A DNA stretch of 36,883 nucleotides from a virus. Positions within the stretch are counted from its first letter, which is position 1. The number at the start of each line of letters is the position of its first letter. The position numbers were made by a program, and so were the translations under genes. Of this stretch, positions 8,197-36,883 are shown in pieces. The DNA is taken from the IMG/VR virus record IMGVR_UViG_3300032047_002101, positions 1-36,883 of that record. The stretch is one strand, 5' to 3'. The notes beneath the pieces are model-generated. The model was not told the DNA's origin. It saw nothing but the letters and a program-made list of their open reading frames with translations, and did no database searches.

Positions 8197-8217
8197 CAAA
8201 TTGTATATATTTATATA
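8189..8217 (+). promoter_or_regulatory. Class 2 shared upstream motif (CGTTTT-N9-TATATATTTATATA)
   Basis: CGTTTT (8189-8194) and TATATATTTATATA (8204-8217) recur at 19019-19047 with identical spacing and additional matches between them. It overlaps the end of the polymerase gene and precedes the sliding clamp ATG by 32 bases. This may be a phage-specific middle or late promoter with a TATA-type -10 region. Function is inferred only from recurrence and position. Confidence 0.5.
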
Positions 8218-19018: not shown

Positions 19019-19047
19019 CGTTTTTCTAATTTATATATATTTATATA
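19019..19047 (+). promoter_or_regulatory. Class 2 shared upstream motif (second copy)
   Basis: CGTTTT (19019-19024) and TATATATTTATATA (19034-19047) match the copy at 8189-8217 with identical spacing. It starts 3 bases after the exonuclease stop and precedes the ATG of the ribbon-helix-helix gene by 21 bases. A good Shine-Dalgarno AGGAG lies between (19060-19064). Confidence 0.5.
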
Positions 19048-19068: not shown

Positions 19069-19263
19069 ATGGCAAATACGAAATTAACAACTGTAAAGAT
19101 ATTGACAGATGTATATTCAAAATTTAAAAAATATTCATTTGATTCAAGTTTAACTTTACAAAAACTAGTAAATCGTTCACTTAACAAATATGTTGAGGAT
19201 GACGATTACAGAAAAGAAATTAACAACTACGAGAACCTACATGAAAGCGGTTCACAATTTTAA
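19069..19263 (+). CDS. Small ribbon-helix-helix (Arc/MetJ-like) DNA-binding protein
   Basis: A 64-residue protein with the pattern of a ribbon-helix-helix repressor: a short beta strand TTVKILT, then helix A DVYSKFKKYSFD, a turn, and helix B TLQKLVNRSLNKYVED. It would bind operator DNA as a dimer and is the only transcription regulator recognised in this window. It is preceded by the class 2 motif and a strong Shine-Dalgarno sequence (AGGAG, 4 bases from the ATG), unusual here and consistent with high expression. A 46-residue gene follows 2 bases later. The fold is likely; targets are unknown, with the class 1/2 motifs and the 31898 palindrome as candidates. Confidence 0.7.
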   Translation: MANTKLTTVKILTDVYSKFKKYSFDSSLTLQKLVNRSLNKYVEDDDYRKEINNYENLHESGSQF

Positions 19264-30978: not shown

Positions 30979-31868
30979 TGAAATATTGTATTTCTATATT
31001 TGCACTTCCACATGAGATTGATGATTTAGAAGTAACCTTAACCCAACTAGGAAAAGCGTTTCAATATATCAATCAAGAAAACTTTATATTAGATGTTACA
31101 TTAGGAATGTCTGATAATTTAGTAATGTGGGAGCAATCAAAATTACCAAAGGAATACTTTCAAGATAAGTTTATTTTACTACAAAATAAATGTTGGTGGG
31201 TTGATAACAAATTCTTTAGGTTATCTGAAGGTGAAGTTCAAGGGTGTGTATCTAAAAGGAGACAAACTTGGTTAGACCACAAGAACGTTGATTATCATAT
31301 TTGGTTAGATACCGATATTATATTTGATGAAAGAACTCTTGTTTACTTAGATAATGTTGCATCACAACTAGATGATAAACACGCAGTAATTACACCAGAG
31401 ATTGTAAAAGTTTGGGACAATACTTGGGATTGTTTAGTAAATGAACAATTCTTAGATAAACCAACAGATTATCAACATACAAATAACCCATTTATAGATT
31501 CAGGCATCAAAGGAGATATCTCAGTAGAAACTGTGGTTTCTGGTGTTCCTGGTCAACCAACTATGAAATTTGCTGGTGGTTGGTTCACTTGTATTTCAAG
31601 AAATATACTCGATAGATTAACAGTACCTGAATCATTTGGTCACTATGGATTGGAAGATACCTATCTTATGCAAGGATTAGAATTACTAAAGTTAGGTACT
31701 CAATATAAAATAAAAAATCTTGTAGTTTGTGAGAACTATAAGTTTAGAAACAATGTGCATATAACTAATTACCTTGCTTCAATTAGTAGAAAAGATGAAT
31801 TTTTAAAGATTGCACAATCTAATTTTGTTAAAGAGCTTGAAAAAGTAGTACAAAACACTACGTTTTAA
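30978..31868 (+). CDS. Glycosyltransferase-like protein, GT-A type, last in the cassette
   Basis: A 296-residue protein with YHIWLDTDIIFD (106-117), a canonical DxD (D111, D113) of GT-A enzymes, and KFAGGWFTCISR with GLEDTYLMQG later, the acceptor-side 'GLEDt' motif seen in GT2 proteins. It begins at a TAATG overlap with the gene before and is followed by the 138-base regulatory gap, so it ends the sugar operon. Donor and acceptor unknown. Confidence 0.77.
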   Translation: MKYCISIFALPHEIDDLEVTLTQLGKAFQYINQENFILDVTLGMSDNLVMWEQSKLPKEYFQDKFILLQNKCWWVDNKFFRLSEGEVQGCVSKRRQTWLDHKNVDYHIWLDTDIIFDERTLVYLDNVASQLDDKHAVITPEIVKVWDNTWDCLVNEQFLDKPTDYQHTNNPFIDSGIKGDISVETVVSGVPGQPTMKFAGGWFTCISRNILDRLTVPESFGHYGLEDTYLMQGLELLKLGTQYKIKNLVVCENYKFRNNVHITNYLASISRKDEFLKIAQSNFVKELEKVVQNTTF

Positions 31869-31897
31869 ATCTCAGTTAGATATTTATTATCAGAAAA

Positions 31898-31913
31898 GGA
31901 TGTTATAACATCC
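31898..31913. promoter_or_regulatory. 16-bp perfect palindrome, candidate operator
   Basis: GGATGTTATAACATCC reads identically on both strands. A second inverted repeat, TAACAT-CC-ATGTTA (31906-31919), overlaps it. They lie in the gap between the sugar cassette and the exported-protein cluster, upstream of a TATATT (31948-31953), so a repressor or dimeric activator site is plausible. It could also form a short RNA hairpin but has no T-run. Confidence 0.5.
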
Positions 31914-31979
31914 ATGTTACTTCAACAGTCGTTTTATTCAAGACGTATATATTCAATTTAGTTTTATTTAATTAGTTAC

Positions 31980-32006
31980 AGTAATCTATTAACATAGGAG
32001 ATTACT
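31980..32006 (+). promoter_or_regulatory. Hairpin overlapping the ribosome binding site of the 32007 gene
   Basis: AGTAATCT (31980-31987) can pair with AGATTACT (31999-32006), loop of 11 bases. The Shine-Dalgarno sequence AGGAG (31996-32000) is half in the loop and half in the stem, and the stem ends right before the TTG start. This would limit ribosome access. Seen directly in sequence; regulatory effect inferred. Confidence 0.5.
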
Positions 32007-32513
32007 TTGAAGTACGCTACATTAAATGTATTTAAAATATTCATTTTGTGTATCTTAGTTTTAACACCAACCGGTTCTAATGAGATATACGAAGATGACA
32101 ACCTCATTAAGGTCGGTGACGTAACCAACGAAATCCGCATGGGGAAATTTGCAGGTAACCGAAACCTGGCAGTTGGTGTAAAAAATATCCTCGAAGAACT
32201 CCTCTTAGATTTAGATTATGATTTATCAGACCAGGCATCCACACAAGTGAATGTTAGATTGGTCTTTTTTGATATAAAAAATATTGGAACATCGGTTGCG
32301 GTGTTTCATAAAGATGTTTCACTAACGCAGATTATAGCAATTGGTGAACTTGAAGTCAATGGAAAGGTTAGAAAAAGGACTACTCAAAAGGGCCAGTCAA
32401 GAACAATTTCTACCTCTACACTTGTGGTTGCAGAAGATGGTACATTTAATCAACAAACGGCGAGTATAGCGTTGAAAAAACTATGCGAATCAATTATTAA
32501 GGATTTATTATGA
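32007..32513 (+). CDS. Exported YajG-like protein of unknown function, TTG start
   Basis: A 168-residue protein with an N-terminal hydrophobic segment (NVFKIFILCILVLTPTGS) acting as a signal peptide or anchor. The mature part, with GVKNILEELLLDLDYDLSD, VNVRLVFFDI and a closing QQTASIALKKLCESIIKDLL, resembles the layout of YajG-type periplasmic proteins. The start is TTG at 32007, supported by TAGGAG 6 bases upstream; a following in-frame ATG would remove the signal. It starts the exported cluster and couples to the next gene by ATGA. Local base use is less AT-rich (ccaaccggtt, cgaaacctgg) than the neighbours, suggesting recent acquisition. YajG likeness is weak. Confidence 0.7.
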   Translation: MKYATLNVFKIFILCILVLTPTGSNEIYEDDNLIKVGDVTNEIRMGKFAGNRNLAVGVKNILEELLLDLDYDLSDQASTQVNVRLVFFDIKNIGTSVAVFHKDVSLTQIIAIGELEVNGKVRKRTTQKGQSRTISTSTLVVAEDGTFNQQTASIALKKLCESIIKDLL

Positions 32514-35524: not shown

Positions 35525-36237
35525 AAAACTTACTACTATTGATATGTGTATTTTTAACACATATCACTTTTTCACAAACTGTTGGCAAGATAAAAGCAGA
35601 AACTTATCAAGCAGAATTCGAAAAAAAGAAATCTATCGATGATGTTTCTGATTATTGGGGTGAAACTATTCCAATTGCACTAATCAATATATCTGCATCT
35701 GATGTGGTTTACGAAATGTGGCCAGATTTAAAAGATGCAAGAATAGGATTAGGAGTTACCAATATGGTAATTGAATATTTAGATTGGACAAACAGATTTG
35801 AGTTTGTAGAAGAAAAATCAGAGATTAAAAATAGAATGAAATCTCAATGGGTTGCATCACGAAAGGGTGTTTCACAAAACGAAGTTTATGGTATGGGTAA
35901 AGTCATGTTAGCAAAGTATTTTGTTACAATAGAGATTTATGACTTTTCTGTTTCAGAAGATGAAGTTTTATCACTAAAAGATGGTTCTAAACAAACACAA
36001 ACAACTCGTTTAGGTTTACAAGTTCGTTTCACTAATGCAGAGAATGGTACTTACTTTGTAGGTTCTGGTCTCGGAGAAGCAAATACAGTTAAGACTCAAG
36101 AGGGTTTGCTGGGGTTAGATTTGGAGGAAATAAACTTCAGACAGTCAGCAATTGGAGTGACTACCAGAAAAGCATTAGAAACGGCTTCAGCAAGGATAGT
36201 AGGGAGAATGATAAGAAAAGGGATATTTGAAAACTAA
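35521..36237 (+). CDS. CsgG-like exported protein (curli secretion channel family)
   Basis: A 238-residue exported protein with a signal peptide ending in HITFSQ. The mature part IPIALINISASDVVYEMWPDL..., GLGVTNMVIEYLDWTNRFEFVEEKSEIKNRM follows the CsgG pattern of a conserved strand, then 'lg.g..d.l...l...grF.vver..l', and later RLGLQVRFTNAENGTYFVGSGLGEA and TTRKALETASARIVGRMI fit the barrel strands and closing helix of the family. CsgG is an outer-membrane lipoprotein pore; here the lipobox Cys is missing, so it may be soluble or a different oligomer. It ends 3 bases before the Ser/Gly/Asp-rich protein, a possible export substrate. Confidence 0.7.
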   Translation: MKNLLLLICVFLTHITFSQTVGKIKAETYQAEFEKKKSIDDVSDYWGETIPIALINISASDVVYEMWPDLKDARIGLGVTNMVIEYLDWTNRFEFVEEKSEIKNRMKSQWVASRKGVSQNEVYGMGKVMLAKYFVTIEIYDFSVSEDEVLSLKDGSKQTQTTRLGLQVRFTNAENGTYFVGSGLGEANTVKTQEGLLGLDLEEINFRQSAIGVTTRKALETASARIVGRMIRKGIFEN

Positions 36238-36240
36238 TGA

Positions 36241-36883
36241 ATGAGAAAACTACTATCGATACTTTTATTTCTGTGCATAACACAATTTAGTTATTCACAA
36301 ACCTTCACACAGACGTTTGTAGACAGATGTACTGGTGAGGTACAAGTTGTAACCGCAAACTTCACAAGTGGTTCAGCAATCGTTGCATTCTACAACGAGG
36401 CAAAATTATTTACTTACGAACAATATACAAATGGTGAACTACATCAATGGTTAGTTCAAAAATATGCATGGTGGGCAGCACTTTCACCATGTTCAACTGC
36501 TCAAACCAACGCAACCAACGCTCAAAATACTGCGAATAACGCAACTAACAATACATCAAACGCTACAAATAATACGAACACAAGTGGTTCAAGTGGTTCA
36601 TCTTCAAGCGGAAGTAGTGGAAGTAGTGGTTCATCAGGCTCAAGTGGAAGTGGTTCAGATTCAAGTGGAAGTGGTTCAAGTGGAGGAGATAGTGGAAGTG
36701 GCTCTGATTCGAGTGGAAGTGGTTCTGATAGTGGCGGAAGTGGTTCTGATTCTGGTGGAGATAGTGGAAGTGGTTCTGATGGAGGAGGTGATTCTGGTGG
36801 AGACAGTGGAGGAGACTCAGGTGGAGATAGTGGAGGTTCTGATTCCGATGGAGGAGGAGACTCTGGTGGTGATTCCGATAGTG
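36241..36883 (+). CDS. Secreted Ser/Gly/Asp-rich low-complexity protein, truncated by the window end
   Basis: The frame from ATG at 36241 is open to the last base. It has a signal peptide (LLSILLFLCITQFSYSQ), a compact domain of about 65 residues with two cysteines (DRCTGEV and LSPCSTA) likely in a disulfide, an Ala/Asn/Thr-rich linker (about 88-114) and then a long Ser/Gly/Asp repeat tract (from about 115). Similar short N-terminal domains with a TFVDPCTGE-type motif occur in proteins near the tail genes of Bacteroidetes phages (recalled, unverified). The tract resembles SD-repeat stalks or calcium-binding spacers. Function: perhaps an exported adhesin or structural protein. Confidence 0.75.
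   Translation, partial: MRKLLSILLFLCITQFSYSQTFTQTFVDRCTGEVQVVTANFTSGSAIVAFYNEAKLFTYEQYTNGELHQWLVQKYAWWAALSPCSTAQTNATNAQNTANNATNNTSNATNNTNTSGSSGSSSSGSSGSSGSSGSSGSGSDSSGSGSSGGDSGSGSDSSGSGSDSGGSGSDSGGDSGSGSDGGGDSGGDSGGDSGGDSGGSDSDGGGDSGGDSDS
36583..36883 (+). repeat. Imperfect short tandem repeats encoding Ser-Gly/Asp tract
   Basis: Repeats of AGTGGAAGTGGTTC- and GGTGGAGATAGTGG-like units make up the coding sequence to the window end. The unit shifts from Ser/Gly-rich to Gly/Asp/Ser-rich along the tract. This region is much higher in G than its surroundings and could change length by slippage. Confidence 0.85.

Follow-up and report, generated by a model that had tools for sequence, protein, structure and literature searches.

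The closest described systems are those of phage T4. The translational operator of T4 gene 32 is described as a 5' pseudoknot and an A/U-rich stretch before the start codon, and the SELEX sequence given for T4 RegA is aaAAUUGUUAUGUAA (both PMC3014915). T4 oriE carries evenly spaced 12-nt repeats, the role of which is called ill-defined (PMC3016281). Among marine phages, curli-type operons with CsgG and CsgF have been described for pelagimyophages and for Melnitz (PMC7029224, PMC9004378). In the account of PMC9976891, ribosomes of Bacteroidia do not recognize Shine-Dalgarno sequences, whereas ribosomes without bS21 do; that bS21 is encoded by phages is already known (PMC9723584, PMC6375957).

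We analysed one stretch of viral DNA, a virus record of 36,883 nt (the window), and in it the gap before the gene that starts at position 32007 (the 32007 gene). A sequence-only reading of this gap had listed a palindrome, an overlapping inverted repeat, a TATATT box and an 8-bp hairpin at the TTG start, all of which are indeed present (Table 1). An array of GTT units in the same gap had gone unmentioned.

Table 1. Features of the gap upstream of the 32007 gene, and of two genes discussed in the text (positions in the window).
Feature	Position	Strand	Remarks
Late-promoter-like box GATATTTAT	31879-31887	+	TATATTTATA in related phages; window copy one base off the motif
Palindrome GGATGTTATAACATCC	31898-31913	+	As RNA, 6-bp stem with loop UAUA
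GTT array	31902-31987	+	GTT at 31902, 31916, 31931, 31961 and 31975; degenerate GTA at 31945
Overlapping inverted repeat TAACAT/ATGTTA	31906-31911/31914-31919		
TATATT	31948-31953		
Start-codon hairpin AGTAATCT/AGATTACT	31980-32006	+	Arms 31980-31987 and 31999-32006; 8-bp stem, 11-nt loop; abuts TTG at 32007
Shine-Dalgarno-like AGGAG	31996-32000	+	6 nt before TTG; part loop, part stem; kept in near relatives
Regulated gene	32007-32513	+	168-aa protein with N-terminal hydrophobic segment; TTG start at 32007
Small ribbon-helix-helix-like protein	19069-19263		Weak Arc-like family match (E 0.0036)

The 32007 gene and its late-promoter-like box

The window represents part of a T4-like phage genome. 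Its genes include one for a TonB-dependent receptor according to Pfam matches, and others that we take from their sequence to encode GroEL, GroES, the sliding clamp and parts of the clamp loader. The product of the 32007 gene is predicted to be an exported protein with the fold of a CsgG/LptE/PelC-like lipoprotein. Its AlphaFold2 model is of moderate confidence (mean pLDDT 74) and retrieved Cj1090c (E 4.1e-6) and CsgG (4uv2, E 7.5e-5) in Foldseek. Of 25 family members, 13 matched the Pfam family Lipoprotein_16, at E 5.7e-6 for the best one; the window protein itself did not. No Pfam match to CsgG or CsgF was found here, and the likeness to CsgG is one of fold only. Downstream of the 32007 gene follow a cohesin-domain protein and further genes with export-like N-termini. 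An open frame at 36236-36883, cut by the end of the record, has an export-like start and a long repeat rich in Ser, Gly and Asp.

Relatives of the 32007 gene were collected at 80 loci of viral contigs, and 47 of these were used together with the window, giving 48 leaders which, where related, are not independent and for which, in the relatives, the start codons were picked by us. Of the other 33 loci, some were duplicate copies, some had a coding sequence that ran up to the start and some were not selected. Searching for relatives with L010 returned only contigs already in the set, and the leader DNA itself had no match when searched against a phage set. One relative found later, L297, comes from a Flavobacteriaceae MAG; the phages of this group appear to infect Bacteroidota.

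In two related contigs of about 275 kb each, the motif TATATTTAT is mostly intergenic, shows strand biases of 38:4 and 29:4, and typically lies 25-50 nt upstream of structural genes. It has the form of a T4-type late promoter, an A/T-rich box shortly upstream of late genes; the consensus of T4 itself, TATAAATA, is different from that of these phages. In most leaders of the 32007 gene family, the box ATATTTAT or a near variant is found 65-175 nt upstream of the start. Judged from its sequence, the box of the window is a probable T4-type late promoter of these phages, from which the leader would be transcribed from about 31890 on. Because the box lies upstream of both palindrome and hairpin, the gap would mostly be a 5' mRNA leader of about 110 nt. 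It is one of few long ones; the leaders of the gp23-like (major capsid) and gp32-like genes are also long. TATATT is an unlikely promoter, the upstream box being one base off a motif that has a strand bias, is found mostly between genes and stands before structural genes.

The motif TATATTTATA, apparently the late promoter of the phage group, was seen in G001 and G004 and at three places in the window (8206-8214, 19036-19044 and 31879-31887). In L044, L058, L061, L067 and L076 an apparent Rho-independent terminator (AGAGTATCCA..TGGATACTCTTTTT) has the late-promoter box, about 120-133 nt before the start, in its loop, and promoter and terminator thereby overlap. T4-type late promoters lack a -35 element, their reading depending on a gp55-type sigma and the sliding clamp; L044 contains what we take, by eye only, to be a gp55-like protein.

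Secondary structure at the start codon and at the 5' end

The last GTT unit supplies, with its 3' half, the 5' arm of the start-codon hairpin, the 3' arm of which overlaps the Shine-Dalgarno-like motif. The motif had been described as covered by the hairpin; part of it is in the loop and part in the stem. Ten near leaders retain the hairpin, and elsewhere start hairpins are formed by other sequences. In the clade of the window the stem consists of AGTAATCT and AGATTACT, and L006, L017 and L031 have a G-U variant of it; L010 and L013 have a GTTACC/GGTAAC stem before a GTG start; and unrelated start stems are found in L014, L016, L021, L024, L069, L074, L075 and others. Stems abutting the start at p<=0.05 are present in 23 of 48 leaders and in seven of 144 other late genes of related contigs; these controls, which also served for accessibility, are ATG genes with the exact box and may include the 32007-family gene of G006. 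The 23 stems are of different sequences and contain 21 G-U pairs among them, which favours RNA over DNA. A start-abutting stem thus recurs by structure and not by sequence, as for a translation-inhibiting start hairpin. Leaders without such a stem are, among others, L012, L028, L029, L030, L037, L043, L049, L050, L062 and L070, as well as the L044 group (L044, L058, L061, L067, L076).

The accessibility of the start (-14 to +12) was 0.396, compared with 0.554 for other late genes (p 1e-12; p 1.5e-7 with one leader per lineage, the lineages being groups drawn by eye with no tree behind them). The MFE z-score of the start region was -1.52 for the 32007 gene family and +0.10 for other late genes. 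L051 and L069 have a very stable start fold between -45 and +35, with -30 kcal/mol in 80 nt and z below -6.

Within the window the folding z-score of the hairpin region is modest (-1.5 to -2.2 for three stretches). Neither this value nor the palindrome alone is remarkable; the weight lies with conservation. A scan of viral contigs for AGTAATCT..AGATTACT gave matches in at least 120 stretches; among the matches listed, Shine-Dalgarno hairpins directly at the start occurred only in the 32007 family (L122, L138, L200), and the others were judged to be chance. Pairing of 31918-31925 with the start (32007-32014) is not conserved (p 0.03 to 0.65 over 10 leaders). No Rfam covariance model exceeded its gathering score in 31700-32200, where two sub-threshold matches fall inside the gene, and an Rfam scan of eight sources returned tRNAs only, all in L074. 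Translational control by structure at the start is supported by the comparison of leaders and control genes.

For the palindrome, the outcome is different. Perfect palindromes of at least 16 bp number two in the window, against 1.14 (sd 1.06) in shuffles, and the palindrome alone is not unusual window-wide. Of the shuffled versions of the 138-nt leader, 0.4% contained such a palindrome, 7.4% contained an 8-bp stem and 0.05% contained the two together, figures that refer to a site chosen after seeing it. The palindrome is common to the window and L005 only, and even L005 has the overlapping repeat in disrupted form. In 18 of 29 leaders, the 38-nt stretch following the box folds at p<=0.05 versus shuffles (mean z -1.97, n=29; three of 33 leaders of the 32007 gene without a box and one duplicate were left out), with sequences that are unrelated among relatives; 11 leaders fail, L006 narrowly (p 0.06). 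The corresponding mean z of other late leaders was -1.0 for those longer than 60 nt (n=39) and +0.13 for short ones (n=109). The long leaders of gp23-like and gp32-like genes (G001, G002, G003, G004, G006) likewise have a hairpin soon after the late box, the sequence of which differs by phage.

Since the sequences differ among relatives and hairpins occupy the same place in gp23-like and gp32-like leaders, the palindrome is probably a 5'-end RNA stem-loop and not an operator; it would perhaps protect the mRNA. As an operator we rejected it: L005 alone shares it, the probable late promoter is upstream of it, and unrelated hairpins take its place in many other leaders. The sequence-only reading had proposed tight control of both transcription and translation and had let its case depend on conservation in relatives. 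The translational half is upheld by the relatives, which keep the hairpin, and by the 144 control late genes; control of transcription through the palindrome, which is not kept, is not. In L019, L023 and L027 the 5' hairpin carries the loop CGGCAA on changing stems, and in L024 the loop CTGCAA; this is perhaps a protein-binding loop.

A GTT array phased to the start codon

The units of the array follow the consensus AA-NN-GTT-W-Y-N-T-W-AA, purines being nearly absent at the second base after GTT. In 28 leaders, 71 pairs of GTT were counted at 12-15 nt, as compared with 8.8 (sd 2.9) in shuffles, and none of 300 shuffles reached 71. When each lineage was represented by a single leader (n=16, with weak ones among them), there were 39 pairs versus 5.9, a value reached in none of 1000 shuffles. 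Among the 1- to 3-mers tested, GTT had the strongest periodicity (77 versus 11.4 in 27 leaders); here, and for the unit consensus and single-strandedness, arrayless L012 was also dropped and the figures lean towards the array.

It is the start codon, and not the promoter, to which the array is phased. In 27 of 28 leaders (33 less five near-duplicates) a GTT is located at -24 to -38 from the start codon, few being closer to it, whereas GTT positions counted from the promoter box are flat. In the window the last GTT is at -32 and one unit is degenerate.

A chain-scoring scan of eight contigs ranked the array before the 32007-family gene first in seven (the window and six of seven related contigs), narrowly so in G006. 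The exception is G003, where a run of identical 12-nt repeats, taken as coding, outscores it. The strict array pattern was found at nine places in viral contigs, none of them a leader of the 32007 gene family and all judged from flanking sequence to be coding or chance. Thirteen leaders of other clades lack the array (0 pairs versus 1.1 expected), as does L012. Some of the arrayless clades have start structure, which makes array and structure separable.

The last GTT unit is often the 5' arm of the start hairpin. In the short leader of L297, which conforms to the spacing from the start codon with units at -42 and -29, the last one pairs instead with ATTACT in the first codons, and L007 and L015 are, by eye, similar in that the last unit pairs with codons and not with the Shine-Dalgarno. 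The bases of GTT show no clear excess of single-strandedness (0.45, versus 0.40 in shuffles; higher in 16 of 27 leaders). A literature search on evenly spaced GUU leader arrays and translational repressors found no such leaders.

Several candidates for a binding factor were considered. RegA is the best lead because its SELEX sequence aaAAUUGUUAUGUAA fits the GTT unit, yet no RegA was found. PF01818 matched none of 11 records, in a scan without a control match and on contigs that may be incomplete; a profile of seven RegA proteins gave nothing below E 0.5 among 4040 ORFs of eight contigs, while held-out T4 RegA scored 8e-55; and no RegA lies beside gp62 in the six contigs with gp62. A site of the RegA type, overlapping or touching the start codon, is also lacking, the start-proximal GTT being at about -24 to -38. 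Rho utilisation sites have YC dinucleotides at regular spacing; in 27 leaders, neither C nor TC nor YC was in excess at distances of 12-15 nt. An RRM protein was rejected as binder after PF00076 gave no match in 10 contigs, and RbpB was rejected on its reported motif GUAGGAUA, which is not GUU (PMC12119571).

Proposed control, alternatives and known systems

From the computed positions, periodicity, start-codon phasing, recurrent start structure and gene specificity, we infer a course of events that includes the transcription start, the existence and identity of a factor and the direction of its action. The exported-protein cluster would have a late phage mRNA, and the gap would be its 5' leader. 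A T4-type late promoter near 31879-31887 would start the RNA a few bases before the palindrome, which would form a stem-loop at the 5' end of the transcript. The remaining leader would be an RNA array with units AA-NN-GUU-W-Y-N-U-W-AA every 12-15 nt, counted from the start codon. By pairing with the ribosome-binding region or the first codons, the last unit would keep translation of the first gene down by default. A putative multivalent factor (an RNA-binding protein of host or phage, or else ribosomal protein bS1 of a 30S subunit that is waiting) would bind the array, compete for the last unit and so open the start.

The start-codon register and the G-U pairs argue for the RNA level. Because the last unit often pairs with the start, binding of a factor would free the start, and we favour activation over repression by occlusion. 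That translation is controlled in this way, by a factor with several RNA-binding surfaces which binds the array and opens the start, we regard as an even call. Tentatively, and with rather more doubt than confidence, the array may be put forward as a new translational control element: about one GUU RNA array per genome, with 12-15 nt spacing, counted from the start and read by a multivalent reader that competes with the start pairing of the last unit.

Alternatively, the leader might only slow translation. The start structure would then act constitutively, as a brake on an exported protein that is costly or harmful, and the GUU/AA units would be a ribosome standby site for docking of bS1, with no dedicated regulator. 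Ribosome standby sites for structured starts are established, the array, at -25 and beyond, directly precedes the usual footprint of the 30S, the start is folded in arrayless clades too, and near relatives have weak TTG or GTG starts. The strict 12-15-nt spacing with a fixed GTT, and the fact that no site elsewhere in the contigs scores equally, are left unexplained, and we rather doubt this account, although it deserves to be taken seriously.

An operator in DNA is unlikely. Tandem AAnnGTT sites would here be bound by the protein encoded at 19069-19263, or by another DNA-binding protein, to shut off transcription. The Arc-like match of the 19069 protein points this way, as do its relatives, present in all 11 records of the window-and-array set and in two of eight chosen without the array, a co-occurrence that is confounded by kinship and fragment length and in which three matches among the 11 have weak E values (5e-6 to 6e-5). 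The phasing to the start codon and not to the promoter argues against it, as do the spacing of 13-14 bp, which is not a whole DNA turn, and the lack of an array in leaders of the 19069 protein's own gene.

Replication-origin iterons would account for there being about one such site per contig and have a precedent in the repeats of T4 oriE, but in the compared leaders the array has the sense strand of the 32007 gene and a fixed distance to its start codon, both unexpected for an origin, which makes them very improbable. Least probable of all is the original proposal of a repressor operator combined with a temperature-responsive hairpin: both sequences exist, but the palindrome is confined to the window and L005, and predicted opening hardly changes between 5 and 42 C (0.16 and 0.31, respectively, for GGAGA at 31997-32001).

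A bS21 gene is present in 10 of 19 related records, including G001 (116788-116946) and G002 (139207-139362); in these phages, many with a bS21 of their own, the array may link the exported cluster to a phage-altered ribosome. In G001 and G002 the bS21 gene lies close upstream of the major capsid gene. Shine-Dalgarno-like motifs precede 13 of 31 late genes in G001, 13 of 33 in G002 and six of 13 in G005; the counts are two of 30 in G004, 0 of 14 in G003, 0 of 15 in G006 and 0 of 7 in G008. The array, if real, would give a handle on translation in hosts with ribosomes reported, in PMC9976891, to be blind to the Shine-Dalgarno. It would equally offer concrete access to an RNA-binding factor of these phages, which appear to have Bacteroidota as hosts, and to the timing of a cluster of exported proteins that has a CsgG-like fold and no role assigned to it.

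With the gene 32 operator of T4, the leader shares its length, a structured 5' end, an A/U-rich middle that is repetitive in T4 as well, control at the start and a T4-like phage as carrier. It differs in belonging to an exported-protein gene, in the strict spacing of GUU and in the start-abutting stem, and its gene product is no nucleic-acid-binding autoregulator. RegA sites resemble the unit AA-NN-GUU-W-Y-N-U-W-AA in sequence and likewise act on RNA in the T4 family, but they overlap or touch AUG, whereas here there are several units, none of which reaches the start, and no RegA homologue was found. The iterons of T4 oriE (PMC3016281) are also evenly spaced short direct repeats in about one cluster per genome; the present ones are phased to a start codon inside a late mRNA leader. 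Pelagimyophages and Melnitz are likewise T4-like marine phages with CsgG-related exported proteins of unknown role, while here the similarity is in fold and not in a CsgG or CsgF Pfam match, and the parts of those papers compared mention no leader arrays (PMC7029224, PMC9004378). Start-codon hairpins as such are ordinary; a start-counted periodic array at one gene across diverged phages matched no known element in the comparisons made, and it would seem to be a means, not described before, of timing the synthesis of an exported protein. The proposed start-codon control is thus of an ordinary type, set in a leader that is unusual and carries a periodic array.
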